Shown one piece after another: positions 27,341-56,329 of a stretch of DNA of 64,000 nucleotides. A program made the position numbers and the translations under genes. Source of the stretch: Geobacter sp. DSM 9736 (lineage in GTDB: Bacteria > Desulfobacterota > Desulfuromonadia > Geobacterales > Geobacteraceae); assembly GCF_900187405.1 (NCBI RefSeq), contig NZ_LT896716.1, positions 2,484,001 to 2,548,000 on the forward strand, read 5' to 3'. Below the pieces are notes generated by a model that saw only the letters and a list, made by a program, of their open reading frames with translations, was not told the DNA's origin and did not search any database. How positions within the stretch are numbered: the first letter of the stretch is position 1; each line of letters opens with the position of its first letter.

Positions 27341-29377
27341 TCACCCCTCCGTCTTCAGCCAGCACCTGAGCAGCTCCGCCACGCTCCACGCCTGGGCTAC
27401 GCATCCGCGCGGAGAGTATGGGTCCTGGGCGTCATGGACCTCGTTGATGCTTCCTATGCACTTCTCGTTCAGCTCCGATGTCAACGGTTCAAGGAACCGC
27501 CGCGCCCCCTTCCTGTCCTCCGGAAAAACCCGCAGCCATGCGTCGACGAAAGGACCGATCAGCCACGGCCACACCGTTCCCTGATGGTAAGCCGCATCCC
27601 GGGAGCGGAGGTCACCGAAGTAGTTCGCCTTGTAATCGGGATGGCCTGGAGCCAGTGACCGCAACCCCACCGGCGTCAGAAGCCGTTCACGCACCAGAGT
27701 GAGTATGGTTTTCCATCGTGACGGATCGAGTACCGGATAACGAAGGGATATGGAGAATACCTGGTTCGGCCTGCAGGCCGGATCATCACCCTCTTCCCCG
27801 TCGACCACGTCGTAAAGGTGCCCCCCATCCTCGTACCAGAAGCGTTCGTTGAATGAGCGGTAGACAACCCCTGCCCTGGCCGCCAGATGGCTGGCCCGCT
27901 GCTCGTCCCCCTCCTCGCTGCACCACCGCTCCATCAGGCGCAGAGCATTGTACCAGAGCGCATTTATCTCCACCGCCTTTCCACGACGTGGCGTAACCAC
28001 CCAGTCCCCCACCTTCGCGTCCATCCAGGTGAGCTGATACCCTTCCGCCCCCTGTCGCAGGAGCCCGTCAGCGGGGTCGATGCCGATGTTGAAGCGGGTA
28101 CCCTCGATGTGCCGCTCCACGATCTCGATCAGGCGCGGCATGATCAGGGCAAGTGTAGTGCGATCCCCAGTGGCCTCCACATACCTGTCCACGGCGTGGA
28201 AGAACCAGAGGGTAGCGTCGGCAGTGTGGTAAAGCCCCTCGTTCTTCCCCTCGGGGAACATGTTCGGGATGAGGCCGTCGCGGACATAGTGAGCGAATGT
28301 CCGCAGAATCCAGCCCGCCTCATTGTGCCTTCCCGTAGAGAGGGTAAGCCCCTCAAGGGAGATCATGGTGTCGCGCCCCCAGTCTGTAAACCAGTGATAC
28401 CCTGCTATGACTGTGCGGATTTCGTCCCCCATCGCGTGTGCGCGGACGCTGTCCTCAAGGCGTCCGGCGGGGGTGATGATAAACTGGTCGGCCGCCATAA
28501 CCAGCTCTGCCGCCACTCCAGACCGCGCCCTCGGATCGGCCGCTGCCAGAAGCAGTCGGCGCCGCTCCCGTTCCGACTTCATCGCCCGGTCCGGATCGAT
28601 GGCGTTTATCGTCTCCCACTTTTCCGTAGACCCGATAAGAGTCGCATCCTGTCCTTCCGAAAGGTCCATGGCGAAATAGCCTGGGCTCCAGAGGTTGCCG
28701 TTCGACTCGTATCCACGGTTGTACTCGATGCGGTAGAAGATGTCGGGGATATGCTTCTCCTCAAGGGTGAAGGTGCCGCGCTCACCATGGAGGACGAAAC
28801 GGAGAGCGGGCATCCGCCTTCCCGCCGAGACCTGGTACCGGTTCTCCACCGCGGACAGGATGTACGGTTCCCCCCGTTCCTCATTAACCGGTGCTTCGTG
28901 GGGACGAAAATGCAGGGCCGGCTGGAGCTTGAGCCGTACGCCCCCACCCTGGAGCAGCCGGTAGGTGATGTGGACTGTGTTCTGCAGATGAACTAGCAGA
29001 ATGCGTTTTTCGAGAACGGTACCGTTGATTTCGTACCGCCAGACGGGGAGCCCCTCTTCCAGGGTGAAGGAAACAAGGTGATCCGCACCCTGAAGGTCGA
29101 CGGTCCCGTCCCCCCGCTCCTCCCCCCCCAGGATGACCTTCGTTCCGTCTTCGAACCGGAGAAGCTCCGTAAGTTTGTTGAACACGAGAACGCGCCCCAG
29201 GGGCGCCGGATATGCGGCGATAAGCATGCCGTGGTAGCGGCGGGTAAGGGCGCCGCCGACGGTGCCGGCAGCGTAACCGCCGAGCCCGTTGGTTACGAGC
29301 CACTCCCGCTTGAGGAGCAGCTCGTTTCGGGTCGGGTTCCTGCCCGTCCACGGCATGGTGCGTACAATGTCATGCAT
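27341..29377 (-). CDS. Glycogen debranching enzyme (amylo-alpha-1,6-glucosidase type)
   Basis: This 678-aa protein has the archaeal/bacterial GDE plan. The N-terminal domain starts RNELLLKREWLVTNGLGGYAAGTVGGALTRRYHGMLIA. The C-terminal (alpha/alpha)6 domain follows, with WFTDWGRDTMISLEGL and the GTVWPWLIGPF motif. It removes alpha-1,6 branches of glycogen in the cytoplasm. GGAG precedes 29377, and the start overlaps the treZ stop by 8 nt, so the two are co-translated. Together they could process maltodextrins toward trehalose. Confidence 0.9.
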   Translation of the reverse strand: MHDIVRTMPWTGRNPTRNELLLKREWLVTNGLGGYAAGTVGGALTRRYHGMLIAAYPAPLGRVLVFNKLTELLRFEDGTKVILGGEERGDGTVDLQGADHLVSFTLEEGLPVWRYEINGTVLEKRILLVHLQNTVHITYRLLQGGGVRLKLQPALHFRPHEAPVNEERGEPYILSAVENRYQVSAGRRMPALRFVLHGERGTFTLEEKHIPDIFYRIEYNRGYESNGNLWSPGYFAMDLSEGQDATLIGSTEKWETINAIDPDRAMKSERERRRLLLAAADPRARSGVAAELVMAADQFIITPAGRLEDSVRAHAMGDEIRTVIAGYHWFTDWGRDTMISLEGLTLSTGRHNEAGWILRTFAHYVRDGLIPNMFPEGKNEGLYHTADATLWFFHAVDRYVEATGDRTTLALIMPRLIEIVERHIEGTRFNIGIDPADGLLRQGAEGYQLTWMDAKVGDWVVTPRRGKAVEINALWYNALRLMERWCSEEGDEQRASHLAARAGVVYRSFNERFWYEDGGHLYDVVDGEEGDDPACRPNQVFSISLRYPVLDPSRWKTILTLVRERLLTPVGLRSLAPGHPDYKANYFGDLRSRDAAYHQGTVWPWLIGPFVDAWLRVFPEDRKGARRFLEPLTSELNEKCIGSINEVHDAQDPYSPRGCVAQAWSVAELLRCWLKTEG

Positions 29378-31262
29378 GGTCGTCTCCTGTGGCCACCGGA
29401 GCCAGCACGACGGCGCTGTGCCCCGGCATCAGCCAGAAGTTGTCGGTTTCCAGCCGGGGAGTCCCCTCCCCGTCATAGCGCGGATTCTCACTTGACCAGA
29501 TAGTGTCCCACATCTTTAATTCGGGAGGGGCGAGGAGCGGCTCCGGAGCCGGGTGCAGGCGCAGGTCGCGCCCGAGGTTGACCAGAAGGAGCCTTTCGCC
29601 GCTGTCGGCGAAAAACCGGATCAGAAAAGTGTGCGCCCCGAGTACGGCACCTTCTATCCTGGCGGCTGCCGCAGGCCTGAATACAGGATCGTCCCGGCGC
29701 AACCGGATCAGGTCGCGGTGCAGGAGGTAGACGGTATTGTGCTCCCCCCGCTCCCCCGGCTTAAGTCGGGACCTTTCGAATGTAGCGGGGGCAGCCGGAT
29801 CGTCCAGACTGTCGGAAACCTCTGCTGATGCGATATTCGCGAACTGGCTCAGAAACTCGACCCGTCCCGCCCGGACGCCCCGGACGATATCCGGATCGAG
29901 ATCGGCAAAGTAGAGGAATGGTGAAGAGGCAGCGAACTCCTGCCCCTGAAAGATCATCGGCGTCGAGGGGGCAAGAAGCAGGAGGGCCGTCATAGCGCGC
30001 AGACTTCCGGGAGACGTTAGCTCGTGAAGCCGCTTTCCCCGGGCTGAATTGGCAATCTGGTCATGGTTCTGGATAAAGCTGACGAAGCTAGCGGGGTTGA
30101 TTCCGAAGGTAGGAGTGCCCCGCCGTTTCCCCTGCCAGAAATAGCGTTGCCCCTGGTAGAGGTACCCCCACTTCACCGCAGAGACGAGTTCCTGCGGATT
30201 GCCGAGGTATTCGCTGTAGTAGGCGTCATTGTGCCCACTCAGGGCAACGTACGCACTGTGATGGAAATCGTCGTTCCACACCAGGTCGAGACCGCACCCT
30301 CCCTCCTCCTCGGAGCGTACCAGCATTACCTGCTGCGGCTCATTCTCGGCTACCAGAAGGATGGACCGTTCACCCGCGGCCAGGCGTGCACGCTCGGCCA
30401 TGCAGGCGATGACATGGCGGGGGGACTTGTCGAAGATGGTCTGGGTGGCATCCAGACGCAAGCCGTCCAGGTGGAACTCGCCGATCCAGTAGCCCGCATT
30501 GGTGATGAAAAACTCCCGGACCGGACCCGAGCCCTCTCCGTCGAAATTAACCGGCTCCCCCCACTCTGTCTTGTAGCGGTCGGTAAAATAGGAAGCCGAG
30601 TACTGCTTGAGATAATTCCCCTCGGGACCGAGGTGGTTGTAGACCACATCGAGAATGACCCCCAGACCGAGGGTGTGGGCGTGGTCCACAAACTGCCGGA
30701 AATCATCAGGCTCGCCATAGAGGTGGCTTGGAGCGAAGAGGTCGACTCCGTCATACCCCCAGCCGAACCGGCCCGGAAATTCAGCCACCGGCATCACCTC
30801 CAGAACCGTTACGCCGAGATCACGCAGCGCGGGAAGCTCCTCCATGGCGCTTCTCCACGTTCCACCAGGGGTGAATGTCCCTATGTGCATCTCGTAGATG
30901 ACTGCGTCCTGCCGCATCACCCCCCGCCATCCATCATCCGCCCAGGAGAAGGCTGGATCTACGACACGGGAAGGTCCGTGGGGTCCTTCGGGCTGAAAAC
31001 GTGAGGCAGGATCGGGGTAAGGTCCTTCCCTGTCGAGCCGGTAGCGGTACAGCGTTCCCGCAGCGGCTTCAGGACACCATGCGCTGAAGTAGCCATCACC
31101 TTCTGAAGCCAGAGAAATCCTTCTGACGTCCCCCCGCGCACCGGGGCCCCCTTCAAGAACAACCTCCACTTCGCGGCGCAGCGGTGCCCAAACCCTGAAG
31201 TGGACTCCTCCCCGCATCAGTTCTGCTCCCACCGGCAACCTTCGCTCTTCCTTGTGCTCCAT
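29370..31262 (-). CDS. treZ: Malto-oligosyltrehalose trehalohydrolase
   Basis: This 630-aa GH13 enzyme (EC 3.2.1.141) releases trehalose from malto-oligosyl trehalose. It has an N-terminal CBM48-like domain (about 10-100), then the barrel with YEMHIGTFTPGGTW, VILDVVYNHLGPEGNY, the nucleophile Asp region HLDGLRLDATQTI (about 265-280), the acid Glu in LVAENEP, and NHDQIAN. TreY, which makes the substrate, is not in the window. The start at 31262 has AAGGA very close to the ATG; a slightly later start cannot be excluded. It forms an operon with the debranching gene. Confidence 0.93.
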   Translation of the reverse strand: MEHKEERRLPVGAELMRGGVHFRVWAPLRREVEVVLEGGPGARGDVRRISLASEGDGYFSAWCPEAAAGTLYRYRLDREGPYPDPASRFQPEGPHGPSRVVDPAFSWADDGWRGVMRQDAVIYEMHIGTFTPGGTWRSAMEELPALRDLGVTVLEVMPVAEFPGRFGWGYDGVDLFAPSHLYGEPDDFRQFVDHAHTLGLGVILDVVYNHLGPEGNYLKQYSASYFTDRYKTEWGEPVNFDGEGSGPVREFFITNAGYWIGEFHLDGLRLDATQTIFDKSPRHVIACMAERARLAAGERSILLVAENEPQQVMLVRSEEEGGCGLDLVWNDDFHHSAYVALSGHNDAYYSEYLGNPQELVSAVKWGYLYQGQRYFWQGKRRGTPTFGINPASFVSFIQNHDQIANSARGKRLHELTSPGSLRAMTALLLLAPSTPMIFQGQEFAASSPFLYFADLDPDIVRGVRAGRVEFLSQFANIASAEVSDSLDDPAAPATFERSRLKPGERGEHNTVYLLHRDLIRLRRDDPVFRPAAAARIEGAVLGAHTFLIRFFADSGERLLLVNLGRDLRLHPAPEPLLAPPELKMWDTIWSSENPRYDGEGTPRLETDNFWLMPGHSAVVLAPVATGDDHA

Positions 31263-42500: not shown

Positions 42501-44483
42501 TCAGGTGCCCGGCTGAAAAAGCTTCCTTGCGGTAGCAAGCTGCTCCGGCGTTCCCAGCAGGAGCACCAGGTCCTCCGCGGCCAGCTCCCACACCGGGTCC
42601 GGGTTCGGAACAACCTCATCCTTCCGCTTTATCATGAGAACTGTCGCCCCCGACCGGCTCCTGATGGTTCCTTCCCGCAGGCTTTCCCCTTCAAGAGGAG
42701 CACCCTTCTGTACGCGGTAGGTGCCTATCTCCGCCCCCGAAAGGTAGCCGCTGATCCCCACTGCGTGACTGTGCCGCCGGCTCATGGTCCGCAGCATGTC
42801 GTAGCCATCCCGCCGCACGTCGGCGATCCGCTGCTCGATCTCGTCCTGGGGCACCATGAAATTCCTCAGCACGCGAGACAGAATCTCCACGGAAGTCTCG
42901 AACTCCTCCGGTATAACCTCGTTAACCCCCAGCTTGTAGAGGGGTTCGACCTCCATCAGGTACCTGGTGCGAACAATGATGTGCACTGCCGGGTTAAGCT
43001 GCCTCGCGAGGGCGGAGACCCTCCTGCTTGCTGCGGCATCGGAGATCGCCACCAGCAGGATACGCGCTTTGTCCAGGTGGGCATGCTCGAGAACTTCGGG
43101 CTTAGAGGCGTCTCCGAACAGAATCCGCTCCCCCTTTTTCTTCTCTGCGGTAATCGTAAAGGGGTTAGTCTCGATCACCATGTAGGGGATCTTCAGGTGC
43201 TTGAGGGAACGGGCCACATTCTTACCGTTGACGCCGTAGCCTACGATAATAACGTGCCCCGACAGGTCGTGCCGTTTCGACTCCCCAACAAGGTGACCCC
43301 GCCCTCTGCTCCACGAATGAGGTACGAAATTCACCAGCCACGCTGCCGCACCAGGGGCGATTCTTCTGAATAATGGAGTCAGTCCCATGGTCGCGATGGA
43401 GGCGGCGAGAAATATCTGGTACGCCTCCTGGGTGAGGAGGCCGTGCCGAAGCCCGCTTTGTGAAAGAACGAAGGAGAACTCACCTATCTGGGCAAGGGAA
43501 AGGGCAGCGATGACGGCGATCCGCATCGGCACCCCCAGGGCCATGACGGCTCCGGCGCCGATCAGGCTCTTGACCAGGAGTATTCCCATCACCACCCCGG
43601 CTATCAGGAAAGGGTATTTCATGAGAATCGCCGGGTCGAGAAGCATCCCGACGGATATGAAAAAGAGGCTCATGAACGCCTCCCGGAACGGCACGAGGTC
43701 GCTCAGGGCCTGCTGGCTGTACTCGGATTCGGAAATGGCGAGCCCGGCTATGAAGGCTCCAAGGGCCAGCGAGAGCCCTGCCTTCGCCGTGAGGAGAGCT
43801 GTCCCGAACCCGATGAAAATGATGGTGAGGATGAAGAGCTCGCGGCTCCTCGTCTTAACCACCTGCTTGAAAAGCCACGGGACGAAGAAACGCGCACCGT
43901 AATGAGCCGCCACGATGACGGCTGCGGCCTTTACGCCGATAAGGAGAAATCCGCGCAGCCCGTCCCCTTCACCCCCAAGGAGCGGCGTGAGGAGCATGAG
44001 CGGCACGATGCAGAGGTCCTGGAAGATGAGGATTCCGAGCGCAATCCTCCCTTGGGGGGTGTCGACTTCTCCGGAGTCGATGAGGAGTTTGAGGAGGATC
44101 GCAGTACTGGAAAGGGCGGTGAGGAATCCGAAAAAGACCGCCTGGTTAACCGGAAGCCCGAAAACGGTTCCGCATACGGCCACCGCGCCTATGGTGAGTA
44201 GGACCTGAAGCCCTCCCCCCCACAGCACGAGCTGCCGTATCCGCATCAGCTCCTTGAGTGAAAACTCGATGCCGATGGTGAATAGCAGCAGCACCACGCC
44301 TATCTCGGCCATCTGCTCGACCTGGTGGGTATTCCTGATGAAGCCGAGGGAATAGGGGCCGGCAAGCATCCCAGTGAAGAGGAAGCCGATTATGGAGGGG
44401 AAAAGGAGCTTTCGGAACAGGACGACCGTAACGAGAGCCAGTCCGAAGAGAATTTCAAGGTCCTGCAGTGCGCTGTAATCCAT
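42501..44483 (-). CDS. CPA2 monovalent cation/proton antiporter with TrkA domains (KefB/YbaL-like)
   Basis: This 660-aa protein has an N-terminal Na+/H+ exchanger domain of about 12-13 helices (1-385). A TrkA-N Rossmann domain follows (VIIVGYGVNGKNVARSLKHL, from about 410), and a TrkA-C domain (about 580-655: VQKGAPLEGESLREGTIRSRSGATVLMIKR). This is the plan of K+ efflux or K+/H+ antiporters at the inner membrane gated by NAD(H) or other ligands. No KefF/KefG-type partner is adjacent. The ATG at 44483 lacks a good ribosome site. Confidence 0.9.
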   Translation of the reverse strand: MDYSALQDLEILFGLALVTVVLFRKLLFPSIIGFLFTGMLAGPYSLGFIRNTHQVEQMAEIGVVLLLFTIGIEFSLKELMRIRQLVLWGGGLQVLLTIGAVAVCGTVFGLPVNQAVFFGFLTALSSTAILLKLLIDSGEVDTPQGRIALGILIFQDLCIVPLMLLTPLLGGEGDGLRGFLLIGVKAAAVIVAAHYGARFFVPWLFKQVVKTRSRELFILTIIFIGFGTALLTAKAGLSLALGAFIAGLAISESEYSQQALSDLVPFREAFMSLFFISVGMLLDPAILMKYPFLIAGVVMGILLVKSLIGAGAVMALGVPMRIAVIAALSLAQIGEFSFVLSQSGLRHGLLTQEAYQIFLAASIATMGLTPLFRRIAPGAAAWLVNFVPHSWSRGRGHLVGESKRHDLSGHVIIVGYGVNGKNVARSLKHLKIPYMVIETNPFTITAEKKKGERILFGDASKPEVLEHAHLDKARILLVAISDAAASRRVSALARQLNPAVHIIVRTRYLMEVEPLYKLGVNEVIPEEFETSVEILSRVLRNFMVPQDEIEQRIADVRRDGYDMLRTMSRRHSHAVGISGYLSGAEIGTYRVQKGAPLEGESLREGTIRSRSGATVLMIKRKDEVVPNPDPVWELAAEDLVLLLGTPEQLATARKLFQPGT

Positions 44484-44875
44484 ATGTACCCGTTTTAAGA
44501 TTTAGATACGACGTGGCTGCACAAAACGTGCAGTCCGGGAATTGATAGCAAGTGCCGGTTTCATTGTCAATGATGACCTGGTTGCTCAGCAGCCTCAAAC
44601 ACTGAGGATCGGAGCATGGAGGAGTGCAGAAAGTCCCAAAAGCTAAAAGTGAAAAACAATAATATGACTTTGATCTGTATTCGGGTGCCCTCGCTTGTTC
44701 CTTAAGTTCCACTAAGTTATATCGAAATTGTTTTTGCCTTTTGAGAGATGAAAGAGAGGGAAAATACCTGCCAAGAGAGGAGGAAAGCTGCCGTAGAAAC
44801 GGAGCGGAGAAGGTCATCTGCAGAAAGAGGCTGTCGCTGGGACAGAGCATCTATGTCCCGCTTACTCCAATGTAT
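44484..44875. other. Gene-free spacer between two same-strand antiporter genes
   Basis: About 390 bp that are richer in A+T than the flanks. I find no convincing gene, terminator or structured RNA; it should hold the promoter of the downstream KefB-like gene. Confidence 0.5.
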
Positions 44876-46366
44876 TCAGCGATCGAGCAGGCTCCCGTCG
44901 CCGGAACGTTCAGCTCCCCCCTCCAGCAGGGAGCGCACCAGTGGAGCTGTCTCAGCAGCCGCGAGGAGAAAGACCCGGTCGTTTTCCTCCAGCACCGTGC
45001 CGCCGCCTGGAATCAGGTACTCCCAGTCCCTCCTGATATAGACGATCAAGGCCCCGGTGGGGAGGCGAAGGTCCACGATCTGCCTTCCGGTCGCAGGCGA
45101 ATTCCCGCCGATCACCACCTCCAGCATCTCCCCCGTCATGTCGTCGGGCACAACCCCGTGCAGGTGGGACCGGGGGGGATGCCGCTCCTCGAGCCCTAGC
45201 AGACGCGCCAGGGCCGGGATGGTGGTCCCCTGTAGTAGAGCCGAGGTAAGCACGATGAAGAATACGATATTGAAGAAGGTTTCCGCCTGCCCCACCCCGG
45301 CCAGCAGCGGAAAGGTCGCCAGGATGATCGGCACCGCTCCCCGCAGACCCACCCATGAGACCATGGCCTTCTCCCGCATTGTGAGCCGCGAGAAGAGCAA
45401 CCCTCCGAACACGCTCAGAGGGCGTGCCGCCACCATGAGGAACGCCGCGCAGAGAAGCCCCTCCGGGATCACGGGAAGCAGATGCGACGGGAACACCTGG
45501 AGCCCCAGGATGAGGAACATGACGATCTGCATGAGCCACGCAAGCCCGTCGTGGAAGCGCATGAGGCTTCGCTTCTGCACGAGCCTGCTGTTGCCGATGA
45601 CGATTCCCGCAACGTACACCGAGAGGAAACCGTTCCCCTGGAGAAGCGTGGAGCTTCCGTAGGTGAAAGGTATCAGCGCCAGAGTGAGCACCGAATAGAG
45701 CCCTTCGTGCTCCAGCCGCAGGCGGTTGATAAGGTGGACGGCACCCCTTCCCACGGCATACCCGTAAAATGCGCCGAACCCCATCTGCCAGGCAACTGTA
45801 GGCACGAGAATCCCCATGCGCGACTGTCCCTCTACGACAAGGGTGGTGATGGCGATGGTGAGAAGCACAGCCATCGGGTCGTTGCTCCCCGATTCCAGTT
45901 CGAGGAGCGATTTCATATCATCCTTCAGGCGTATGTTGCGGGAGCGGAGCACGGCGAACACCGCGGCGGCATCGGTGGAGGAGACTATGGACCCTAGGAG
46001 CAACCCTTCCAGCCACCCGAATCCGAGAACCGCATGGGCGAACCACCCCATCAGGAGCGCGGTGAGGCAGACGCCGAGGGTCGAGAGGGCGATCCCCGCC
46101 CGGAGAACAGGGCGGACGCTGCGCCAGTCGGTGTCCATACCCCCGGAAAAGAGTATTGCAGCAAGGGCGATTACCCCCGCCGACTGGACGAGCCGCGGGT
46201 CGTCGAAATGGATTCCCCCTGGCCCCTCCGAACCGGCAAGCATGCCGACGGCAAGAAAGAGGAGGAGCGCCGGTATGCCGAGCCGGCTCGAGACCTTGCT
46301 CGCCAGGATGCTCAGGAGCAGGAGGACCGAGCCCCCGAAGAGCAGGTATTCAAGAGGGACGTTCAT
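44876..46366 (-). CDS. CPA1 K+/H+ antiporter with TrkA-C domain (CvrA/NhaP2-like)
   Basis: This 496-aa protein has about 12-13 inner-membrane helices (YLLFGGSVLLLLSILASKVSSRLGIPALLLFLAVGMLAG ...) and the ion-binding helix SSTDAAAVFAVLRS...LELESGSNDPMAVLLT. A C-terminal TrkA-C domain is at about 400-480 (GGNSPATGRQIVDLRLPTGALIVYIRR). NhaP2/CvrA proteins exchange K+ for H+. The ATG at 46366 has no strong ribosome site. It is divergent from the hydrolase gene. Confidence 0.9.
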   Translation of the reverse strand: MNVPLEYLLFGGSVLLLLSILASKVSSRLGIPALLLFLAVGMLAGSEGPGGIHFDDPRLVQSAGVIALAAILFSGGMDTDWRSVRPVLRAGIALSTLGVCLTALLMGWFAHAVLGFGWLEGLLLGSIVSSTDAAAVFAVLRSRNIRLKDDMKSLLELESGSNDPMAVLLTIAITTLVVEGQSRMGILVPTVAWQMGFGAFYGYAVGRGAVHLINRLRLEHEGLYSVLTLALIPFTYGSSTLLQGNGFLSVYVAGIVIGNSRLVQKRSLMRFHDGLAWLMQIVMFLILGLQVFPSHLLPVIPEGLLCAAFLMVAARPLSVFGGLLFSRLTMREKAMVSWVGLRGAVPIILATFPLLAGVGQAETFFNIVFFIVLTSALLQGTTIPALARLLGLEERHPPRSHLHGVVPDDMTGEMLEVVIGGNSPATGRQIVDLRLPTGALIVYIRRDWEYLIPGGGTVLEENDRVFLLAAAETAPLVRSLLEGGAERSGDGSLLDR

Positions 46367-46449
46367 GTAATTCCTTCGGTTCGTCTCGCCATGACGTTTC
46401 CCGGCGAGCTGCTACACTTTGAATGATACGGTACTGCGGACAAGGCGCA

Positions 46450-47604
46450 ATGAAACATTGGGGCACTAAAAACGGATCTGCAGCGTTTTTGCGACTGCTC
46501 AGCCAGCACCTCGCGCTCTTTATCGCATGCCTGCTGCTGTGCGGCTGCCATGTAACGCGTGGTTATGAAGCCGCGCTCCTGCTGGCGGACATCGCCTCCG
46601 GCCGCCAACCGAGCCGTCTGAAAAAGGTCACTCCCGACCCGTCACAGCATGAGATAGCCTACACAGCCTTGGGAGAGAAGGGACGGGGCGACCTCTACCT
46701 CCCCGGCGAAACTCCACTGGCCGGGATACTCCTTCTTCCCGGCGCCGCCGAAAACGGAAAGGATGATCCGCGCCTGCGCGCCTTCGCCACGAGCCTCGCC
46801 CGGGCAAGGTTCACCGTCCTCGTACCGGATCTGGAGGGCTTCCGTTCCCTGCGGGTCGGAAGCCGCGACATCGGGGAGACCGCCGCCGCCTTCGCCTGGT
46901 TCGTATCGCGGCCTGATCTTGTCCCGGGGGGACGAGGAGGGATCTGCTCCTTCAGCTACGCCTCCGGCCCAGCAATCCTCGCTGCCCTGGACAAGCGTAT
47001 CAGCGGCCGGGTCCGCTTCATGATGATAATCGGTGGATACTACGACCTTGCAGACGTCCTTGTTTTTTTCACAACCGGATACTACCGGGAGAACGGGGCA
47101 CTCCGGCACAGGGAGCCGAACCGGTACGGCACCTGGGCCTTCGTGGCGAGCAACCTGGAACGCATCGGCAATCCCTCCGACCGTCGACTCCTGCGCATCG
47201 CAGCGCAGCGGAAGATGGAAGACCTCGACGCCCCGGTGGAGGATCTTGCCGAAGATCTCGGCCCCGAGGGGAGAAGCCTCTACCGGTTCATCGACAACCG
47301 CGATCCGGCGCGGGCGACTCTTCTGATGGAAAAACTTCCCGGGCCGATCCGCAAGGAGATCGAGCTTCTAAACATCGCAAATCGCGACCTCACCGCTTTG
47401 AAATCACGGATGATTCTGATCCACGGATATGACGACGACATCATCCCCTTCACCGAGAGCATTGCTCTAGCGCGGGCGCTTCCTCCCGACAGGAGGACGC
47501 TATGCCTGGTACGGGGGCTGATGCACGTTGACCTTGAACCGAGGCTCGCCGACACGTACAGGCTCTGGCGGGCAATCTCGGCGCTGCTGCGGGAAAGGGG
47601 CTGA
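46450..47604 (+). CDS. Alpha/beta-hydrolase-like lipoprotein
   Basis: This protein of about 384 aa starts MKHWGTKNGSAAFLRLLSQH, with a hydrophobic stretch ending LLLCGC (lipobox, Cys 33), so it is probably a lipoprotein. The body looks like an alpha/beta hydrolase: LAGILLLPGAAENGKDDPRL for the oxyanion region, GGICSFSYASG for the nucleophile elbow, HGYDDDIIPF for the acid and RGLMHVDL for the His. Substrate unknown. An ATG nine codons upstream (46423) is possible, but AAGG before 46450 and the better signal favour the shorter form. It converges on the GH65 gene with 15 bp between. Confidence 0.72.
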   Translation: MKHWGTKNGSAAFLRLLSQHLALFIACLLLCGCHVTRGYEAALLLADIASGRQPSRLKKVTPDPSQHEIAYTALGEKGRGDLYLPGETPLAGILLLPGAAENGKDDPRLRAFATSLARARFTVLVPDLEGFRSLRVGSRDIGETAAAFAWFVSRPDLVPGGRGGICSFSYASGPAILAALDKRISGRVRFMMIIGGYYDLADVLVFFTTGYYRENGALRHREPNRYGTWAFVASNLERIGNPSDRRLLRIAAQRKMEDLDAPVEDLAEDLGPEGRSLYRFIDNRDPARATLLMEKLPGPIRKEIELLNIANRDLTALKSRMILIHGYDDDIIPFTESIALARALPPDRRTLCLVRGLMHVDLEPRLADTYRLWRAISALLRERG

Positions 47605-47619
47605 AATCGGCGAATCGGG

Positions 47620-50016
47620 TCACCGGTTTTCGAGGCGGAAGGAGACCGATTTCCCCGGCTCCAGGGTGTGCTCCTCGTCGGCGAACCTTATCCTGACCGG
47701 CTTCGGTTCCCCTTCCCCCGATGAAATCATCAGGCTGTCCCGCGTGGTCACGACGTCGAACCAGGTACCGCGGTGCTTGATGCGCATGGAGATGCTGTCT
47801 ATCGAGTCCGGAATGCACGGATTGAACTGGAGCACCCCCTTTATGAACCGCAGCCCCAGGGAGCAACGCTGGATCATGTCGACGCTGCCCGCCATCGCCC
47901 CCAGGTGTATCCCCTCATGGGTCGTCCCACCCTGAATGTCGCAGATGTCGCTCTCCAGTGCGCGCCGGAAGACCTGCCAGGCGCGATGCCGGTCGGATCT
48001 CGCCATCACCCAGGAATGAACCACGTTGCTCAGGGTGGAGCCATGGGAGCTGCGGGCTGCGTAGTATTCAACGTTCCTGTGGATCATCCTCGGCTCGAAC
48101 CGGTATCCCATGGCGGTGAACAGCTCGTCCAGTTCCTCGGCAGAGAAGAGGTAGAAGAGCATGATGACGTCAGCCTGCTTCGATACCCGGTAGCGGTTCG
48201 GAGTATCCCCCTCCGCTTCGAGGATCCGGTCGAGGCGCTGGATGTCGCCGTATTTTGCGCGATATCCCTCCCAGTCGAATTCGGCCAGGGTCTCGTACTC
48301 CTCGAACTGGCTGATGATATCGCCGTCATGAAATGGAACCCGCATGGTGCGTATGACATCCTGCCACCGCTCCGTTTCAGCCGAATCGAGACCGATGCTT
48401 TCCCTGAGGTCGCGCGACCTCCCTGGTGAAAGCAGGTCGAGGGCTTTCAGCGCCGTGCGCAGCACCCACACAGCCATGACGTTCGTGTAGGCGTTGTTGT
48501 TCAGCCCCGGCTTCTCCGCCCCCGGATAACGGTCGTGGTACTCGTCGGGGCCCATAACGCCCAGGATCTCGTGGCGCCCCGACCGCTCGCTCCAGGTCGC
48601 CAGGGAGGCGTAAAGCCGGGCGATTTCAAGGATCATCTCGATCCCGTAGGTCGCCATGAACTCCTTGTCGCCGGTAGTGTCGTAGTAGTGCCAGACGTTG
48701 TAAGCGATAGCCGCGTTCACGTGGCGCTGGAGGTGGCTGTTATCGGGAAGCCAGCGCCCCGACTTCGGGTTGAGGTGGACGTGCTGGGTCTCTTCGCGCC
48801 CGGTGCTGCCGCTCTGCCAGGGAAAAAGGGCTCCCGAAAGGCCCGCCTGCCGCGCAGCGACCCGCGCCGCCGGAAGCCTCCGGTACCGGTAGAGAAGAAG
48901 GGAGCGGGTAAGCACCGGTATCCTGAAGTTGAGATAGGGAAAGATGAAGAGCTCGTCCCAGAAGATGTGCCCCCTGTAAGCTTCCCCGTGCCATCCCCGT
49001 GCCGGAACGCCGGTGTCCAGATCGATGGAGTTACGGGAGACGGTCTGTAGCAGGTGAAAGATGTGAAGCCGGAGGATCATCTGTGTGCAGCCGTTGGCGG
49101 AAATGTTGATGTCGCACCTGTCCCAGAGGTGGTCCCACTCGGTGACGTGGCTGCGCAGCAGGTCGTCGAATCCGCCGCTCCGCTGCGACAACTCGATGGC
49201 GTCGAGCAGGGGTTCCGAAATTGCGAAGTCGCGGGAGCTGAAAAGGGTCACCAGCTTCTCGAAACGCAGAGGCGTGTTCTGAACGGCGTCGAGGACCATT
49301 TCTGTAAGGATGTATCCCGGCTGCTCCACCACCCGCCGCTCCCCCTCCACGATGGTTCCCGCAGTGAGGATGGTACGGGCGGCCTGCGCTATGCGGAGGC
49401 CGGACTGGGTGGTCTCAACAAGCAGATAGATCCCGTCTTCACCGAAGACCCCCTGTTTCAGTGTTTCCAGGTGCTTGGAGTTGAGCTGACGGTACCGCTC
49501 GACACCGGAATTGACTATCGTGCCGTCCAGCCCGGAATGAACCGTTATACGGCCAGACCAGTTCTCCGGGGTTATGGTGATCTCCTGGGCTGCCTGATGC
49601 ATCGACCCCATGTGGACGAAACGGCGGAATGCAACGGTGGTCTCCCGCTTCTGCCTGTCCCTGTAGCGCACCATCCGGGAAAGCACACCCTGCTTCATGT
49701 CCAGTTCCTGACGGTACGCCACGATCTCCGCCGACATGAGGTTGAACCAGTCCCCCCCCTCGGGCTTGAATCTGAAGATGAGCCAGTTGGGAAGATTCAC
49801 GAGGTCTTCGTTTTCCACCACCCGCCCCGCCACCTCCGTCTTCAGCCTGTTGTACCCCCCGGCCAGGTATGTGCCCGGATAATGGACATTGCTTGCCCAG
49901 GCCTCCGGGGCCGCCCCGCGGGTCGCGAAATACCCGTTGCCGAGAGTGCATAGAGCTTCCCGCAGCCCTTCCTCCGCAGGATCATAGCTGTCATAGACAA
50001 GTATCCAGGGGTCCAT
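47620..50016 (-). CDS. GH65 family disaccharide phosphorylase (trehalose/kojibiose/maltose type)
   Basis: This 798-aa protein has an N-terminal beta-sandwich (LGNGYFATRGAAPEA), the (alpha/alpha)6 catalytic domain with GHIFWDELFIFPYL and LPDNSHLQRHVN, and the catalytic Glu in GVMGPDEYHD (near 490). The phosphate-site region is KQADVIML...HGSTLSNVVHSW. GH65 enzymes split an alpha-glucoside with phosphate to beta-glucose 1-phosphate plus glucose. The fused beta-PGM upstream uses exactly that product. The neighbouring trehalose-phosphatase domain suggests trehalose as substrate (inference). The start codon overlaps the upstream stop (TAATG). Confidence 0.9.
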   Translation of the reverse strand: MDPWILVYDSYDPAEEGLREALCTLGNGYFATRGAAPEAWASNVHYPGTYLAGGYNRLKTEVAGRVVENEDLVNLPNWLIFRFKPEGGDWFNLMSAEIVAYRQELDMKQGVLSRMVRYRDRQKRETTVAFRRFVHMGSMHQAAQEITITPENWSGRITVHSGLDGTIVNSGVERYRQLNSKHLETLKQGVFGEDGIYLLVETTQSGLRIAQAARTILTAGTIVEGERRVVEQPGYILTEMVLDAVQNTPLRFEKLVTLFSSRDFAISEPLLDAIELSQRSGGFDDLLRSHVTEWDHLWDRCDINISANGCTQMILRLHIFHLLQTVSRNSIDLDTGVPARGWHGEAYRGHIFWDELFIFPYLNFRIPVLTRSLLLYRYRRLPAARVAARQAGLSGALFPWQSGSTGREETQHVHLNPKSGRWLPDNSHLQRHVNAAIAYNVWHYYDTTGDKEFMATYGIEMILEIARLYASLATWSERSGRHEILGVMGPDEYHDRYPGAEKPGLNNNAYTNVMAVWVLRTALKALDLLSPGRSRDLRESIGLDSAETERWQDVIRTMRVPFHDGDIISQFEEYETLAEFDWEGYRAKYGDIQRLDRILEAEGDTPNRYRVSKQADVIMLFYLFSAEELDELFTAMGYRFEPRMIHRNVEYYAARSSHGSTLSNVVHSWVMARSDRHRAWQVFRRALESDICDIQGGTTHEGIHLGAMAGSVDMIQRCSLGLRFIKGVLQFNPCIPDSIDSISMRIKHRGTWFDVVTTRDSLMISSGEGEPKPVRIRFADEEHTLEPGKSVSFRLENR

Positions 50017-51584
50017 TAGAGTCCTCCCGCGCAGAAGCCGGCCAGGCTCTCCAGAAACTTCCGCACCTCGCCGGTGTCCTTCAGCCGGTATGAAGCGGAC
50101 GTTTCGGCAGGAGCATCCTGCACGGCGATGCCGATCCCCCGCCCTTCCAGTTCGCCGAAAGCATCCTCGTCGGTGACGTCATCCCCGATGTACAGTGGTA
50201 TCACGTCGGGACGGTCCAGGTGGAGCGCACGGAGCAGGGCCAGGAGGGCCTTCCCCTTGTGCCAGTCCACGGCGGGACGCAGCTCGAATATCTTCTTCCC
50301 TCCGGTCTTGCGGAGCCGGGGGTTCAGCGCGACGAGGGCATCCACCGCACGCTCCACCTGCACCGCCTGTTCAGCCGCTACCCGCCGGTAATGAACGGCC
50401 ACGGCGAACTTTTTCCTCTCAATCAGTATCCCGGGGATCCGGGCGAGGTCGGCGGTCAGCTTTCGGCCGGCTTCTTCCAGGTCGGGAAGGAAATCGACCC
50501 CTACCCTGTTTTCCAGGTGGAGCCCCTCCGGACCTCCCATGTCGAATCCGTGACTCCCGGCGTAGAATATCGAGTCCAGGGCGACGAGACGCCGTACGTC
50601 CGGAAGGTCCCTTCCGCTGATGACGGCAACTGTGCAACGGCGTGCAAGATCCGTCACCACACTGCGCGTCTCGTCGGACATCAGGGCACGGTCGGGAGTC
50701 TCGGCGATGGGGACAAGAGTGCCGTCGTAGTCGAGGAAGATGGCGAGGCGCCTTCCCCGGCACCGCTCCCTTATCTCGTCCAGGGAGGCGAGGGCCGACG
50801 GGCGCAGCGCAGCAGCTCCCTCCTCCACCGCCACCTCTGCCAGATCCCCCACGACCAGGTCCGCCCCGTGGTAGCGAAGCGCCTCCCGGTTCCCCCCCCG
50901 GTCCACCCCGATGACGAAGCCGAAGCCTCCCGCCCTCCCCGCCTCCACCCCTGAAACCGCGTCCTCCACCACCAGGGCCCGCGAAGGCGCAACCCCCAGC
51001 CGCCGGGCGGCTTCAAGGAAGATATCGGGGGCGGGTTTACCCGCGATCCCCAGACGGGCAGACTCAACCCCGTCCACCCGCACGTCGAAGAGGTCCAAAA
51101 GCTGAACCTTCTCAAGGATTATCTCGCAGTTACGGCTGGAGGAGATGATCGAGGTTTTCATCCCGAGGCGCTTGAGAAGGTGCACGAACTGTACGGTGGA
51201 GCGGTAGACGGTGACCCCCTGCTCCCGGAGGAGCCGGAGGAACAGGTCGTTCTTGAGGCGGCCGAGGCCGTGGACGGTTACGGCCTCGGGAGGGTCCTCG
51301 GGCGTACCTTCGGGGAGCAGGATTCCGCGGGAGGCGAGAAAGCTCCTGATGCCGTCGAAACGGGGCTTGCCATCGATGTATATCCGGTATTCAGCCATCT
51401 CGAAGGGGCGGAAGGGATCGCCGGTACGAGGGGCACGGAGGGCGAGGAAGCGATCGAACATCTCCTTCCATGCCCGGGCATGGACCGACGCCGTGTCGGT
51501 CACCACCCCGTCCAGGTCGAAGATGGCCCCGTCGAAATCGGATGGGCGGATGACCGGCCCGCGCCTCACGGAATCACTGCACAT
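50016..51584 (-). CDS. Fusion of beta-phosphoglucomutase and trehalose-6-phosphate phosphatase
   Basis: This 522-aa protein has two HAD domains in series. The first (about 15-255) has FDLDGVVTDTASVHARAWKEMF and IAGKPAPDIFLEAARRLGV, matching beta-PGM. The second (about 280-520) has IFLDYDGTLVPIAE, VISGRDLPDVRRLV and YIGDDVTDEDAF, matching OtsB. Expected reactions are beta-glucose 1-phosphate to glucose 6-phosphate, and trehalose 6-phosphate to trehalose. GAGGAGG precedes 51584; the longer frame to 51875 is rejected. The gene overlaps the GH65 gene by 1 nt. No otsA is in the window. Confidence 0.9.
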   Translation of the reverse strand: MCSDSVRRGPVIRPSDFDGAIFDLDGVVTDTASVHARAWKEMFDRFLALRAPRTGDPFRPFEMAEYRIYIDGKPRFDGIRSFLASRGILLPEGTPEDPPEAVTVHGLGRLKNDLFLRLLREQGVTVYRSTVQFVHLLKRLGMKTSIISSSRNCEIILEKVQLLDLFDVRVDGVESARLGIAGKPAPDIFLEAARRLGVAPSRALVVEDAVSGVEAGRAGGFGFVIGVDRGGNREALRYHGADLVVGDLAEVAVEEGAAALRPSALASLDEIRERCRGRRLAIFLDYDGTLVPIAETPDRALMSDETRSVVTDLARRCTVAVISGRDLPDVRRLVALDSIFYAGSHGFDMGGPEGLHLENRVGVDFLPDLEEAGRKLTADLARIPGILIERKKFAVAVHYRRVAAEQAVQVERAVDALVALNPRLRKTGGKKIFELRPAVDWHKGKALLALLRALHLDRPDVIPLYIGDDVTDEDAFGELEGRGIGIAVQDAPAETSASYRLKDTGEVRKFLESLAGFCAGGL

Positions 51585-51619
51585 GAATGCCTCCTCGTCC
51601 GCGTTTGACGGCCGCAAGC

Positions 51620-54280
51620 TCAACCCGCGGCTGCCTGCCGTTTCCTCCTGATCCACTTGTCCACCTCCACCAGCACCACCACCGATGCCGAGATCGCCAC
51701 GATCCGCACCCACTCCACACCCCCGAGAGGAACCGTACGGAAAACCCACTGGAGGGGCGGCGCGTAGATGACGGCCAACTGCGCGACGAAGGCAGCGATC
51801 ATGCTGTAGAAGAGGAAAGGATTGCTGAACGGACTGATGTGGAAGATGGATCCCAGCTCCGAGCGGCTGTTCCATGCCTGGAAAAACTGGAAGAAGACCA
51901 TGGTGGTCACCGCCACGGTCCGTGCATGCTCCAGGCTCTGGCCCCCCCGAAGCGTCACCACGAAGTTGCAGACCACTCCCGCCGCGATGAGCAGGCCCAC
52001 GAGAATGGTCCTCTCCATGAGAAGTCGGGACATGATCCCCTCCTGAGGGGGGCGGGGGGGCCGGTCGATGATCCCTTTCTCCTCCGGCTCGAAGGCGAGG
52101 GCCACGTCCTGGAGGCCGTTGGTCACCAGGTTGATCCAGAGGAGCTGGGCGGGGACGTAGGGGATCGGCATCCCGAGCACCATGGTGCCGATGATGGAGA
52201 GGATGGCGGCGACCCCGGTGGGGATGAGGAAGAAGGTCACCTTGCGGAGGTTGTCGAAGACGATCCTCCCCTCCTTCACCGCGCTGAAGATGCTGGCGAA
52301 GTTGTCATCGGCCAGCACCATGTCGGAGGCCTCCTTGGCCACGTCGGTGCCGGTTATACCCATGGCGATGCCGATGTGGGCGGATTTGAGGGCCGGAGCG
52401 TCGTTGACGCCGTCGCCGGTCATGGCCACCACCTCACCGTGCCTGACGAGCTGCTGGGTTATCCGCAGCTTGTGCTGGGGAGATACACGGGCATAGACCG
52501 ACACCTCCCGTACCCGCTCGAAGAGCTCCTCGTCGCTCATCGCCTCCAGCTCCCGCCCCGTGATGACGGGAGCGCCGGGGCCGATGATGCCGAGCTCGCG
52601 CCCGATGGCCTCGGCCGTAACGGCGTGATCCCCGGTGATCATGACCACCCGAACCCCAGCCCTGTGACATCCGGCGATGGCGTCGATGACTTCGGTGCGG
52701 GGAGGATCGATCATCCCCTGCAGCCCTGAGAATAGAAGCCCACCCTCTTCCACGTCGCGGTGGGTCAGTTCATTCGTACCATCCGCCACCTTCTTCCAGG
52801 CGAAGGCCAGTACCCGCATCCCCTGGGCAGCGAGTTCCGTTGCCGCAGCGAGCATCTCCTTTCTCCGTGATCCCTCGGCAGCGCACATCTCCACGACCCG
52901 CTCGGGGGCTCCCTTGACAAAAAGATACGCCCCCTCCCCGTGCCGGTGGAGGGTCGCCATGTACCCCCGCTCCGATTCGAAGGGAACGATAGCCAGCTGC
53001 TCGTACCGCTCCTTTTCCTCCTCGACGGCGAGTCCCCCCTTGACGGCGGAGACGATGAGGGCACCTTCTGTCGGGTCGCCGCTCACCCTGAACCGCCCCT
53101 CCTCCTCGTAGACGTCGGACTCGTTGCAGAGCAGGCCGATCCGCAAAAGGCGCAAGAGGGCCTCGTTCTCCGGGAGTGCGGTCTTCTTCCCTCCGAGGAG
53201 GATCTCCCCCGCGGGTGCGTAGCCTATTCCCGTCACCTCGTAGAGCCGTTCCCCGTCGTGGAGGCGGGTGACGGTCATCTCGTTTCGGGTGAGGGTGCCG
53301 GTCTTGTCGGAGCAGATCACCGTGGTGCTGCCGAGGGTCTCCACCGCGGGGAGCTTCCGGATGATGGCGTTCGTCCGCGCCATCCGCGCCACCCCCACCG
53401 CCATCGCAATGGTGACGACGATGGGCAGCCCCTCGGGGATCGTTGCCACGGCCGCGGCCACCGCCGTCATGAACATCTCCTTTACGCTCTCTCCCATAAG
53501 GAGGCCGACCGCAAAGAGCGCCCCCGATGCCCCCATCACCAGGAGCCCGATCATCCGGGCGAAGCGGTCGATCTTCTCCTGGATAGGGGCCTTCACCAGG
53601 CCGATATCCCTGACCTCGCCTGCGATGGTGCCGAGGATTGTCGATGCGCCGGTCGCCGTAACGACCCCCCTGGCCCGGCCGTTCACCACGGCGGTCCCCA
53701 TGAACGCCATGTTCGTCTGGTCGGCGGGGATGAGATTTTCGCCGGCAACCGGAGCGGCTCCCTTCTCCACGGGGAGGGATTCCCCGGTGAGCATCGCCTC
53801 GTCGATCCGCAGCTCGTTCACGTGGAGAAGCCGCAGATCCGCCGGGACCCGCGCACCGGAAGCGAGCAGCACCAGGTCCCCCGGCACGAGCTCGGCGCTG
53901 GAGAGCTCCTTCTCCCTCCCATCCCGTATCACCCGCGCCTTGGGCACCACGAGCTTCTTGAGGGACTGGACGCTCTCCTCCGCCTTGTACTCCTGGAGGT
54001 ACCCGATGACGGCGTTGAGGAGCACCACCGCGATGATGACCCCGGCGTCGATGTACTCCCCCAGGAGGATGGTCACCACCGCGGCCACCAGAAGAATGAA
54101 GATGAGGGGGCTCGTGAACTGGTGGAGGAGGATCGCGAGGCGGCTGATCTTCTCTTCTTCGGCAAGTTTGTTGGGGCCGTAACGGGCAAGCCGTTCTCGA
54201 GCCTCCTGCCCGCTGAGCCCCCCGTCTGGAGTGCTTAGCTTCTCCAGGACATCCCGGGCTTCCATCTCGTACCAGAGCAC
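51620..54280 (-). CDS. P-type cation-transporting ATPase (P2A, Ca2+-ATPase-like)
   Basis: This 886-aa inner-membrane pump has actuator TGES (near 163), the M4 motif PEGLP in AVATIPEGLPIVVTIAMAVG, and phosphorylation site CSDKTGTLTRNE (Asp near 322). KGAPE, TGD and MTGDGVNDAPAL (near 627) follow, then ten helices ending in the PMR1/SERCA-like C-domain. M6 is LWINLVTNGLQDVALAF, with Asn and Asp but not the strict SERCA pattern, so ion choice (Ca2+, or another cation) is open. GTG at 54280 with GGAGG upstream gives MLWYEMEARDVLEKL, better than the ATG at 54265. It may lead the trehalose operon, with 35 bp to the next gene. Confidence 0.9.
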   Translation of the reverse strand: MLWYEMEARDVLEKLSTPDGGLSGQEARERLARYGPNKLAEEEKISRLAILLHQFTSPLIFILLVAAVVTILLGEYIDAGVIIAVVLLNAVIGYLQEYKAEESVQSLKKLVVPKARVIRDGREKELSSAELVPGDLVLLASGARVPADLRLLHVNELRIDEAMLTGESLPVEKGAAPVAGENLIPADQTNMAFMGTAVVNGRARGVVTATGASTILGTIAGEVRDIGLVKAPIQEKIDRFARMIGLLVMGASGALFAVGLLMGESVKEMFMTAVAAAVATIPEGLPIVVTIAMAVGVARMARTNAIIRKLPAVETLGSTTVICSDKTGTLTRNEMTVTRLHDGERLYEVTGIGYAPAGEILLGGKKTALPENEALLRLLRIGLLCNESDVYEEEGRFRVSGDPTEGALIVSAVKGGLAVEEEKERYEQLAIVPFESERGYMATLHRHGEGAYLFVKGAPERVVEMCAAEGSRRKEMLAAATELAAQGMRVLAFAWKKVADGTNELTHRDVEEGGLLFSGLQGMIDPPRTEVIDAIAGCHRAGVRVVMITGDHAVTAEAIGRELGIIGPGAPVITGRELEAMSDEELFERVREVSVYARVSPQHKLRITQQLVRHGEVVAMTGDGVNDAPALKSAHIGIAMGITGTDVAKEASDMVLADDNFASIFSAVKEGRIVFDNLRKVTFFLIPTGVAAILSIIGTMVLGMPIPYVPAQLLWINLVTNGLQDVALAFEPEEKGIIDRPPRPPQEGIMSRLLMERTILVGLLIAAGVVCNFVVTLRGGQSLEHARTVAVTTMVFFQFFQAWNSRSELGSIFHISPFSNPFLFYSMIAAFVAQLAVIYAPPLQWVFRTVPLGGVEWVRIVAISASVVVLVEVDKWIRRKRQAAAG

Positions 54281-54307
54281 CTTTGCGCCTCCGCAACCAC
54301 GTAATGT

Positions 54308-54328
54308 ACACCCCCCATGGGGAGGTGT
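54308..54328 (-). promoter_or_regulatory. Palindromic operator candidate upstream of the P-type ATPase gene
   Basis: 21-bp dyad ACACCCCCCATGGGGAGGTGT (nearly perfect) between a TATGAT-like box (minus strand, about 54340) and the GTG start. It is a probable repressor or metalloregulator site; the regulator is unknown. Confidence 0.4.
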
Positions 54329-54672
54329 GGGCATCATATAAAGCAGGTGCCGGTCTTCGACCCGCATGCAGTCCGCTCACCTTCAATCTAGCAGCTCAGG
54401 CCGGGGAGTCAACCGAAGGGGGTGGGCGCCTGATGTATTCGCTCTCTCAGGAAGATGACCCCTGACTTTGTACCCTTGAAGGAAGTCTCCCCTGGCCTTC
54501 CGCCACATTGAATCTGCCAGGGGTTGTGCATCTCATGGAACATGAAGACCCAGGGATGGCTTGAACCAACCCTGCAATGATCGCGATATTCCGCCGGATA
54601 ATGACCTTGACAGGAGCGGTCCGATTCATTTAACCTCCAAACGGTTGTTATCCCTTCCGAGACAAGACCGCC
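54329..54672 (+). promoter_or_regulatory. Intergenic region with promoter for the nhaA cluster
   Basis: About 340 bp with no gene that I can support. Near its right end are TTGACA (54607-54612), a 16-bp spacer and TTTAAC (54629-54634), about 39 bp before the first small gene. Confidence 0.45.
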
Positions 54673-55180: not shown

Positions 55181-56329
55181 GTGAGAGAAAAGATAAACCT
55201 TCTGCGGGAATTTTCCGTTCCGCTGCTTGCAGGTGTTATGGTCGCCCTGGTATGGGCAAACGTTTCGCCGCAAGGCTACCACCACTTTGTCGAGAGCCCG
55301 TTTCTCGGAAACCTGAGTTTTCATTTCGTTACCAACGAGCTGTTCATGGTCCTGTTCTTCGGCATGGCAGCAGTCGAGATAACACAGAGCTGCCTCCCGG
55401 GAGGTGACCTGAACCCTCCCCGGAAGGCGATAAACCCGCTGCTGGCCACATTAGGGGGTGTTGTCGGTCCGGTTGCGGTATACCTGGCTCTGAACGTTCT
55501 AATCGGCTCGCCTCTCCTTACAAGGGGATGGGGGATTCCTACGGCCACCGATATCGCCCTCGCGTGGCTCGCGGCAAGGATAGTGTTCGGCGCCCGCCAT
55601 CCTGCCGTCTCGTTCCTGCTGCTTCTTGCCATAGCAGACGACGCCATCGGCCTTGCCATAATTGCGGTTTTCTATCCCGATCCGGCTGTTCCGATGGCTC
55701 CCGCCTGGCTCCTCCTTCCGTTGCTGGGGATGGGGGCGGCTCTGCTCCTGCGGACCCTCAAGATCCAGAGCTACTGGCCCTATATCCTCATCGGGGGCAC
55801 GCTCTGCTGGACCGGGCTCTTCAAGGCGCACCTACATCCTGCCCTGGCCCTGGTTTTTGTCGTACCCTTCATCCCGCACCCCCCTCGTGAACGCATGGGC
55901 ATCTTCGAGACCGATCCGCACGACCGCTCTCCGCTGGCAAGTTTCGAGCACGACTGGAAGATAGTGGTTGACTTCGGCCTCTTCATGTTCGGGCTTGCAA
56001 ACGCCGGCGTGGAGTTTTCGGAAATAGGGACGGTGACTTGGCTGGTCCTGATCGCACTACTCCTCGGCAAAACCGCCGGCATCTTCATCATGGGATGGCT
56101 GGGTGCCCGGCTAGGGTTCCCGCTCCCCGGGAACGTCGGCTACAAGGAACTCGCCCTCACAGGATTGATTGCGGGGATAGGCCTCACCGTCGCCCTGTTC
56201 GTGGCAGGAGAAGCTTTTACGGAACCGGGCGTCCAGGGAGCGGCTAAAATGGGAGCGTTGCTGAGCGGAGCGGCCGCGATCGCGGCTATCCTGTTCGGCA
56301 AACTATTTCGTGTCAGGAAGATCGAATGA
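55181..56329 (+). CDS. nhaA: NhaA-type Na+/H+ antiporter
   Basis: This 382-aa inner-membrane antiporter exports Na+ in exchange for H+. The ion site is the Asp pair D153-D154 in LLLAIADDAIGLAII; the unwound helix 4 matches TATDIALAWLAARIVFG. It is a little shorter than E. coli NhaA and lacks some N-terminal sequence. It starts with GTG after GGAG. It is flanked on both sides by small exported proteins that may belong with it. Confidence 0.93.
   Translation: MREKINLLREFSVPLLAGVMVALVWANVSPQGYHHFVESPFLGNLSFHFVTNELFMVLFFGMAAVEITQSCLPGGDLNPPRKAINPLLATLGGVVGPVAVYLALNVLIGSPLLTRGWGIPTATDIALAWLAARIVFGARHPAVSFLLLLAIADDAIGLAIIAVFYPDPAVPMAPAWLLLPLLGMGAALLLRTLKIQSYWPYILIGGTLCWTGLFKAHLHPALALVFVVPFIPHPPRERMGIFETDPHDRSPLASFEHDWKIVVDFGLFMFGLANAGVEFSEIGTVTWLVLIALLLGKTAGIFIMGWLGARLGFPLPGNVGYKELALTGLIAGIGLTVALFVAGEAFTEPGVQGAAKMGALLSGAAAIAAILFGKLFRVRKIE

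Follow-up and report, generated by a model that had tools for sequence, protein, structure and literature searches.

A beta-phosphoglucomutase–OtsB fusion and its GH65 partner in Geobacter sp. DSM 9736: a predicted route to trehalose without nucleotide sugars

Why would a genome that lacks trehalose-6-phosphate (T6P) synthase keep a T6P phosphatase, fused to a phosphoglucomutase and set beside a glycoside phosphorylase? The question is raised by two genes on the minus strand of a 64,000-nt stretch of Geobacter sp. DSM 9736 DNA (contig NZ_LT896716.1, positions 2,484,001 to 2,548,000; hereafter the window, in which coordinates are counted). One gene (50016..51584) encodes, as its open reading frame (ORF) and domain and profile searches indicate, a 522-residue fusion of beta-phosphoglucomutase (beta-PGM) with the T6P phosphatase OtsB; the other (47620..50016) encodes a 798-residue phosphorylase of glycoside hydrolase family 65 (GH65) which, by its domains, fingerprint, tree position and structure match, is a predicted T6P phosphorylase. 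The pair is probably a self-contained route of trehalose synthesis that dispenses with nucleotide sugars, its substrate specificity and direction being deduced from sequence.

In the proposed pathway, beta-PGM would convert glucose 6-phosphate (G6P) to beta-glucose 1-phosphate (beta-Glc1P); the GH65 enzyme would act as a T6P phosphorylase in reverse, joining beta-Glc1P and G6P into T6P and releasing phosphate; and the fused OtsB domain would hydrolyze T6P to trehalose and phosphate. Overall, two G6P and water would yield trehalose and two phosphates, with no nucleotide sugar involved. The OtsB step is irreversible and would draw the two reversible steps forward. Coupling of a beta-PGM–OtsB fusion with GH65 would fit channeling of beta-Glc1P and T6P, a speculation on our part, and the trehalose would presumably serve as a stress or osmotic solute.

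Why should the pathway run toward trehalose? The genome (one contig, 3.96 Mb, 99.99% complete) contains neither OtsA, the T6P synthase (PF00982), which the same search recovered in control genomes, nor EIIC of a sugar phosphotransferase system (PTS), so that no T6P supply by an OtsA or a PTS of the same genome was found; its sole OtsB and sole GH65 are those of the gene pair. Of the known T6P sources, GH65 acting in synthesis is therefore the one that remains, and it is on these grounds that the synthetic direction is proposed.

This argument requires a GH65 enzyme that handles T6P. Pfam identifies GH65 N, M, and C domains in the 798-residue protein (catalytic domain, E = 2.6e-132). Which DISACCHARIDE it represents was judged by the six GH65 specificity positions of De Beul 2021 (64, 392, 394, 402, 416, and 585 in CsKP numbering), which read TRIGPP in trehalose phosphorylase, EEAPxx in kojibiose phosphorylase and DQGQDE in T6P phosphorylase; the last fingerprint was confirmed with a Caldithrix enzyme that makes T6P from beta-Glc1P and G6P (PMC8537180). 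In the alignment, the window enzyme has D71, Q401, G403, Q411, and E602 at positions 64, 392, 394, 402, and 585, matching five of the six residues of DQGQDE. Position 416 is unplaced: it coincides with a gap in the larger of two alignments, and the smaller puts a Trp there; its likely occupant is Asp425 (in PDNS), common to the window enzyme and 9lb6, a structure from Weissella ceti. With a fingerprint of the T6P phosphorylase type (DQGQ.E) that matches neither TRIGPP nor the EEAP of kojibiose phosphorylase, the enzyme is not predicted to split trehalose.

The same 9lb6 is the closest solved structure both by sequence (32% identity overall) and by fold, with a TM-score of 0.90 vs. 0.84 for kojibiose phosphorylase; the AlphaFold model of the window enzyme has a pLDDT of 80. 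The PDB labels of 9lb6 vary (T6P hydrolase or phosphatase); from its subject and date, we infer that it is the T6P phosphorylase of Feng et al. 2025, as that work is cited in PMC13121652. The two enzymes share the phosphate site SSHGSTLS, including a Ser-Thr where kojibiose phosphorylase has Ser-Ser, and the motif GPDEYHD, in which alignment places the general acid at Glu492 (48541..48543, minus strand; assignment for GH65 from PMC8626586). In the tree, GH65s of such units branch beside 9lb6 and lactobacillar and Proteus GH65 genes that lie with pgmB. The window GH65 is thus most likely a T6P phosphorylase.

How might such an enzyme recognize the 6-phosphate? Conservation points to two candidate ligands, both encoded on the minus strand: His414 (48775..48777) in loop 3 (HLNPKSG) and Arg597 (48226..48228) in DRILEAEG, five residues before specificity position 585. 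Both are present in all 36 GH65s linked to OtsB, as well as in 9lb6 and the lactobacillar and Proteus enzymes, whereas 35 of 41 GH65s without an OtsB link have neither; the six exceptions are these last three T6P phosphorylase-like enzymes and those at loci L019, L027, and L061. Beta-PGM–GH65 fusions of Geobacterales, Nitrospirales, Nitrobacter, and actinobacteria consist of homologous domains but lack OtsB; in them Arg597 is replaced by Leu and His414 by Asn or another residue, and they therefore probably act on a different substrate. In the tree these fusions form two separate groups, one nested inside the Gram-negative units, the other actinobacterial. The set comprises L010-L014, L060, and L080-L089; some of the host genomes (G055, G323, G325, G333, G335, and G341) have neither OtsA nor OtsB.

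The fusion protein supplies the other two activities. Pfam places HAD at residues 18-220 and Trehalose_PPase at 283-503. The beta-PGM domain (residues 18-222; 50919..51533, minus strand) passes the subfamily model TIGR02009 (169.9 bits; cut-off 153) and stays below the cut-off of the stricter equivalog model TIGR01990. Alignment with Lactiplantibacillus PgmB finds its catalytic residues intact (D23, D25, T31, H35, R75, S150, K183, E207, and D208), and they are invariant across the 12 units compared; the protein thus has the DxD, T, H, R, S, K, E-D, and cap domain expected of a beta-PGM. The OtsB domain (residues 277-515; 50040..50756, minus strand) passes the curated T6P phosphatase model TIGR00685 (174.4 bits; cut-off 68.05) and carries the HAD motifs DYDGTL (285), SGRDL (323), KGKAL (443), and GDDVTDED (467). 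The top PDB match of the fusion is the trehalose-phosphate phosphatase 5gvx, which we take to be M. tuberculosis OtsB2. That match (242 bits; 80 for the next phosphatase) covers residues 179-515 (50040-51050) and begins inside the beta-PGM domain, as if 5gvx had descended from a beta-PGM–OtsB fusion minus its mutase. Much of the initial annotation is borne out here: the two ORFs on the minus strand with their one-base overlap, the order beta-PGM, OtsB, GH65 (confirmed by Pfam and matching that in a 1304-residue Rhodococcus ORF), the link to T6P and trehalose through TIGR00685 and the fingerprint, and the independence of the pair from the TreYZ genes.

Is this arrangement peculiar to one Geobacter? 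A scan of genome contigs yielded 16 distant GH65 relatives (55-68% identity) from several phyla: Brocadia, several Deltaproteobacteria, Modicisalibacter, Nitrospira, and Beta- and Alphaproteobacteria. In 13 of the 16, beta-PGM, OtsB, and GH65 lie side by side, mostly with overlapping ends, which argues that the arrangement is not due to chance; 11 of these loci consist of a beta-PGM–OtsB fusion and GH65, and two (L026 and L029) of three genes. Nitrospira and Brocadia are autotrophs rather than sugar eaters. Units are plasmid-borne in Indioceanicola, Croceicoccus, and Legionella lytica, an OtsB-GH65 pair resides on a Rubrobacter plasmid, and single-chain forms on Rhodococcus plasmids. By contrast, within the window's own order relatives occur in just 7 of 141 genomes; leaving the window genome aside, the five long relatives are beta-PGM–GH65 fusions without OtsB. 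Such a patchy distribution suggests that the unit spread by lateral transfer.

The Nitrospirales are particularly informative. The unit is present in 15 of 189 genomes, none of which has OtsA, compared with 106 of 189 overall (hypergeometric P = 2e-6, relatedness ignored), and 11 of the 15 also lack TreY; in OtsA-less carriers, the OtsB of the unit is the only one. Slightly on balance, we believe that the unit is a natural OtsA-independent trehalose route requiring no nucleotide sugar, spread laterally among autotrophs, metal reducers, and halophiles, and the only route in one Nitrospirales clade. One Nitrospirales unit (L079) has an in-frame TAG interrupting its GH65 gene, either a pseudogene or a sequencing error.

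Could the same genes serve another purpose? The initial annotation had envisaged turnover, in which OtsB would produce trehalose from T6P, the GH65 enzyme, as a trehalose phosphorylase, would split it into glucose and beta-Glc1P, and beta-PGM would return the latter to G6P. TreYZ does provide trehalose in this genome, and in other families the pairing of GH65 with beta-PGM serves catabolism, but the fingerprint is not that of a trehalose phosphorylase, and a genome devoid of OtsA leaves OtsB without a substrate; we consider this flux highly unlikely. The annotation itself had named a GH65 clade for another disaccharide, together with a genome lacking otsA or a T6P source, as grounds for rejecting its scheme; the GH65 does fall with enzymes for another substrate, and neither otsA nor a PTS is present, except that the reversed GH65 could itself supply T6P. 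Also unlikely is a catabolic unit, in which T6P phosphorylase and beta-PGM would convert T6P to G6P as in Lactococcus, OtsB acting as an overflow valve and T6P arising from an unrecognized source. The known cellular role of T6P phosphorylase, degradation following PTS uptake (PMC12125463), and the co-occurrence with OtsA outside the Nitrospirales described below would fit this scheme; the lack of OtsA and EIIC in the window genome and the 15 Nitrospirales carriers without OtsA, most of them without TreY, would not, and a phosphatase and a phosphorylase would contend for one substrate. Finally, synthesis or turnover of some other phosphorylated alpha-glucoside, built on another sugar phosphate acceptor and dephosphorylated by the OtsB-like domain, is rather unlikely as the task of the unit. 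Specificity does rest on a few residues in an enzyme 32% identical to 9lb6, with position 416 unplaced; yet the five clear fingerprint positions, the H414 loop, and the R597 stretch all agree with 9lb6, and the OtsB domain scores above the cut-off of the curated model for T6P phosphatases (174 vs. 68 bits).

A number of findings weigh against the synthetic route itself. Trehalose already has another route in the window genome, that of TreYZ: two TreY genes lie elsewhere (C1:641357-644272 and C1:3042940-3045873), and the window encodes TreZ with an archaeal-type glycogen debranching enzyme (27341-31262). The only cellular role described for T6P phosphorylase is degradation (PMC12125463). Most of the 15 Nitrospirales carriers form one clade in the tree and many are metagenome-assembled genomes, so that P = 2e-6 overstates their independence. 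Outside Nitrospirales, of 10 distant genomes with an OtsB-linked GH65, 7 have OtsA as well, mostly with a second OtsB beside it (G141, G147, G154, G146, and G144; G144 has a beta-PGM–GH65 pair, L019, and its frame of beta-PGM–OtsB size lies elsewhere). Loss of OtsB and loss of His414/Arg597 agree in three to four independent contrasts with none opposed, which is not significant in a sign test. For M. tuberculosis OtsB1, which has the same three modules, neither T6P phosphatase activity nor a phenotype is known (PMC11046441).

The co-occurrence rules out mutual exclusion of the unit and OtsA everywhere, and the OtsA-type matches are not glucosylglycerol-phosphate synthases in the four cases checked, which score higher as OtsA. 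Three genomes (G142, G143, and G151) have OtsA without an OtsB of its own; there, the phosphatase of the unit may serve both.

Synthesis is nevertheless favored because (i) 15 Nitrospirales carriers do without OtsA, 11 of them also without TreY; (ii) His414 and Arg597 are kept in all OtsB-linked GH65s and lost in OtsB-less fusions; (iii) stress and ion-transport genes adjoin the pair and several carriers are autotrophs; and (iv) T6P phosphorylase runs in the synthetic direction in vitro (PMC13121652). The Lactococcus enzyme makes T6P from beta-Glc1P and G6P at high titer, and a mixture of maltose phosphorylase, T6P phosphorylase, and beta-PGM also yields T6P (PMC13121652); the equilibrium constant of 760 given there belongs to the overall reaction of maltose and polyphosphate and is not used here for the phosphorylase step. 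As cited in that paper, the system of Taguchi 2020 combines the same two activities, T6P phosphorylase and beta-PGM, in the same direction, but it is man-made, maltose-fed, and devoid of OtsB, a later form being termed new-to-nature (PMC13121652).

How does the unit relate to natural systems? TrePP of lactic acid bacteria (GH65, EC 2.4.1.216; the window enzyme is ~36% identical to the L. plantarum homolog) shares the GH65 fingerprint, His414/Arg597, and an adjacent beta-PGM (L043); unlike the lactic acid bacteria, which obtain T6P by PTS uptake, the window genome has no PTS, OtsB is built in, and synthesis is proposed. With OtsAB the unit would share the T6P intermediate and the final OtsB step; it would replace OtsA and its nucleotide sugar by a reversed phosphorylase. 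M. tuberculosis OtsB1 (Rv2006, 1327 residues; PMC11046441) represents a type with three modules in one chain instead of two ORFs joined by TAATG. To call the window pair a split OtsB1, as was done at the outset, is misleading, for it is in the split form that the unit is widespread. A Rhodococcus plasmid ORF (L037, 1304 residues) has a beta-PGM-like part, OtsB, and GH65 in the same order as the pair, but its mutase part is degenerate, with no cap and the catalytic residues lost, whereas that of the window is intact. Since beta-PGM is degenerate or missing in the single-chain Rhodococcus forms (1304 and 1080 residues), which stand in for Rv2006 in this comparison, the window unit looks more like a version with all its parts than like an OtsB1 that has come apart.

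Some GH65 relatives stand apart. Two stand-alone Nitrospirales enzymes (L090 and L091) have the fingerprint TRGP.E, unlike those of PMC8537180, and on Paraburkholderia and Skermanella plasmids (L058 and L059) a PfkB-type kinase gene lies directly 5' of a GH65 gene with the unusual fingerprint (A/S)RAP. On plasmids of Corynebacterium, Nitrobacter, Citricoccus, and Pseudarthrobacter (L042, L060, L062, and L063), GH65 or beta-PGM–GH65 genes sit beside phosphoketolase, and copper ATPase genes or further stress genes are frequent nearby.

The window pair appears built for joint expression. The fusion gene is preceded by a Shine-Dalgarno sequence, GAGGAGG (51590..51596), five bases 5' of its ATG, and that of the GH65 gene, GGGAGGA (50022..50028), lies within the 3' end of the fusion gene; both, on the minus strand, are graded strong. 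The stop codon of the fusion gene shares one base with the start codon of the GH65 gene in TAATG (50014..50018, minus strand), which, together with the internal Shine-Dalgarno, suggests translational coupling. A calcium-type P-type ATPase gene (51620..54367, minus strand) ends 35 nt upstream of the fusion gene, making a three-gene operon with the ATPase first possible; a promoter-like site 5' of the ATPase gene (54385-54412) is no better than expected by chance. Genes for KefC-like and NhaP2/CvrA-like K+/H+ antiporters (42501-46366) and NhaA (55181-56329) lie nearby; judged by gene content, these antiporters, the ATPase, and NhaA around the pair are an ion and pH stress cluster. Elsewhere, a cation:proton antiporter and lactate permease adjoin the Indioceanicola unit, and lactate permease adjoins the unit L030. 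Such neighbors would fit a role in stress physiology. Convergent with the pair is a 393-residue ORF (46423-47604), by eye a lipoprotein-like alpha/beta hydrolase, for which an NCBIfam search returned no match.

What would such a unit add? A 2025 review names OtsAB, TreYZ, TreS, TreT, and TreP as the routes to trehalose and gives T6P phosphorylase only for T6P degradation (PMC12125463), and we found no published description of the unit in the open-licence literature. The protein families are all known; it is the pathway that may be new. If it operates as proposed, trehalose would have an added route independent of both UDP- and ADP-glucose, the orphan otsB genes of otsA-less genomes would be accounted for, and there would be reason not to annotate such GH65 genes as trehalose-degrading; the unit would also suggest a concrete ancestry for mycobacterial OtsB1, so far unexplained.

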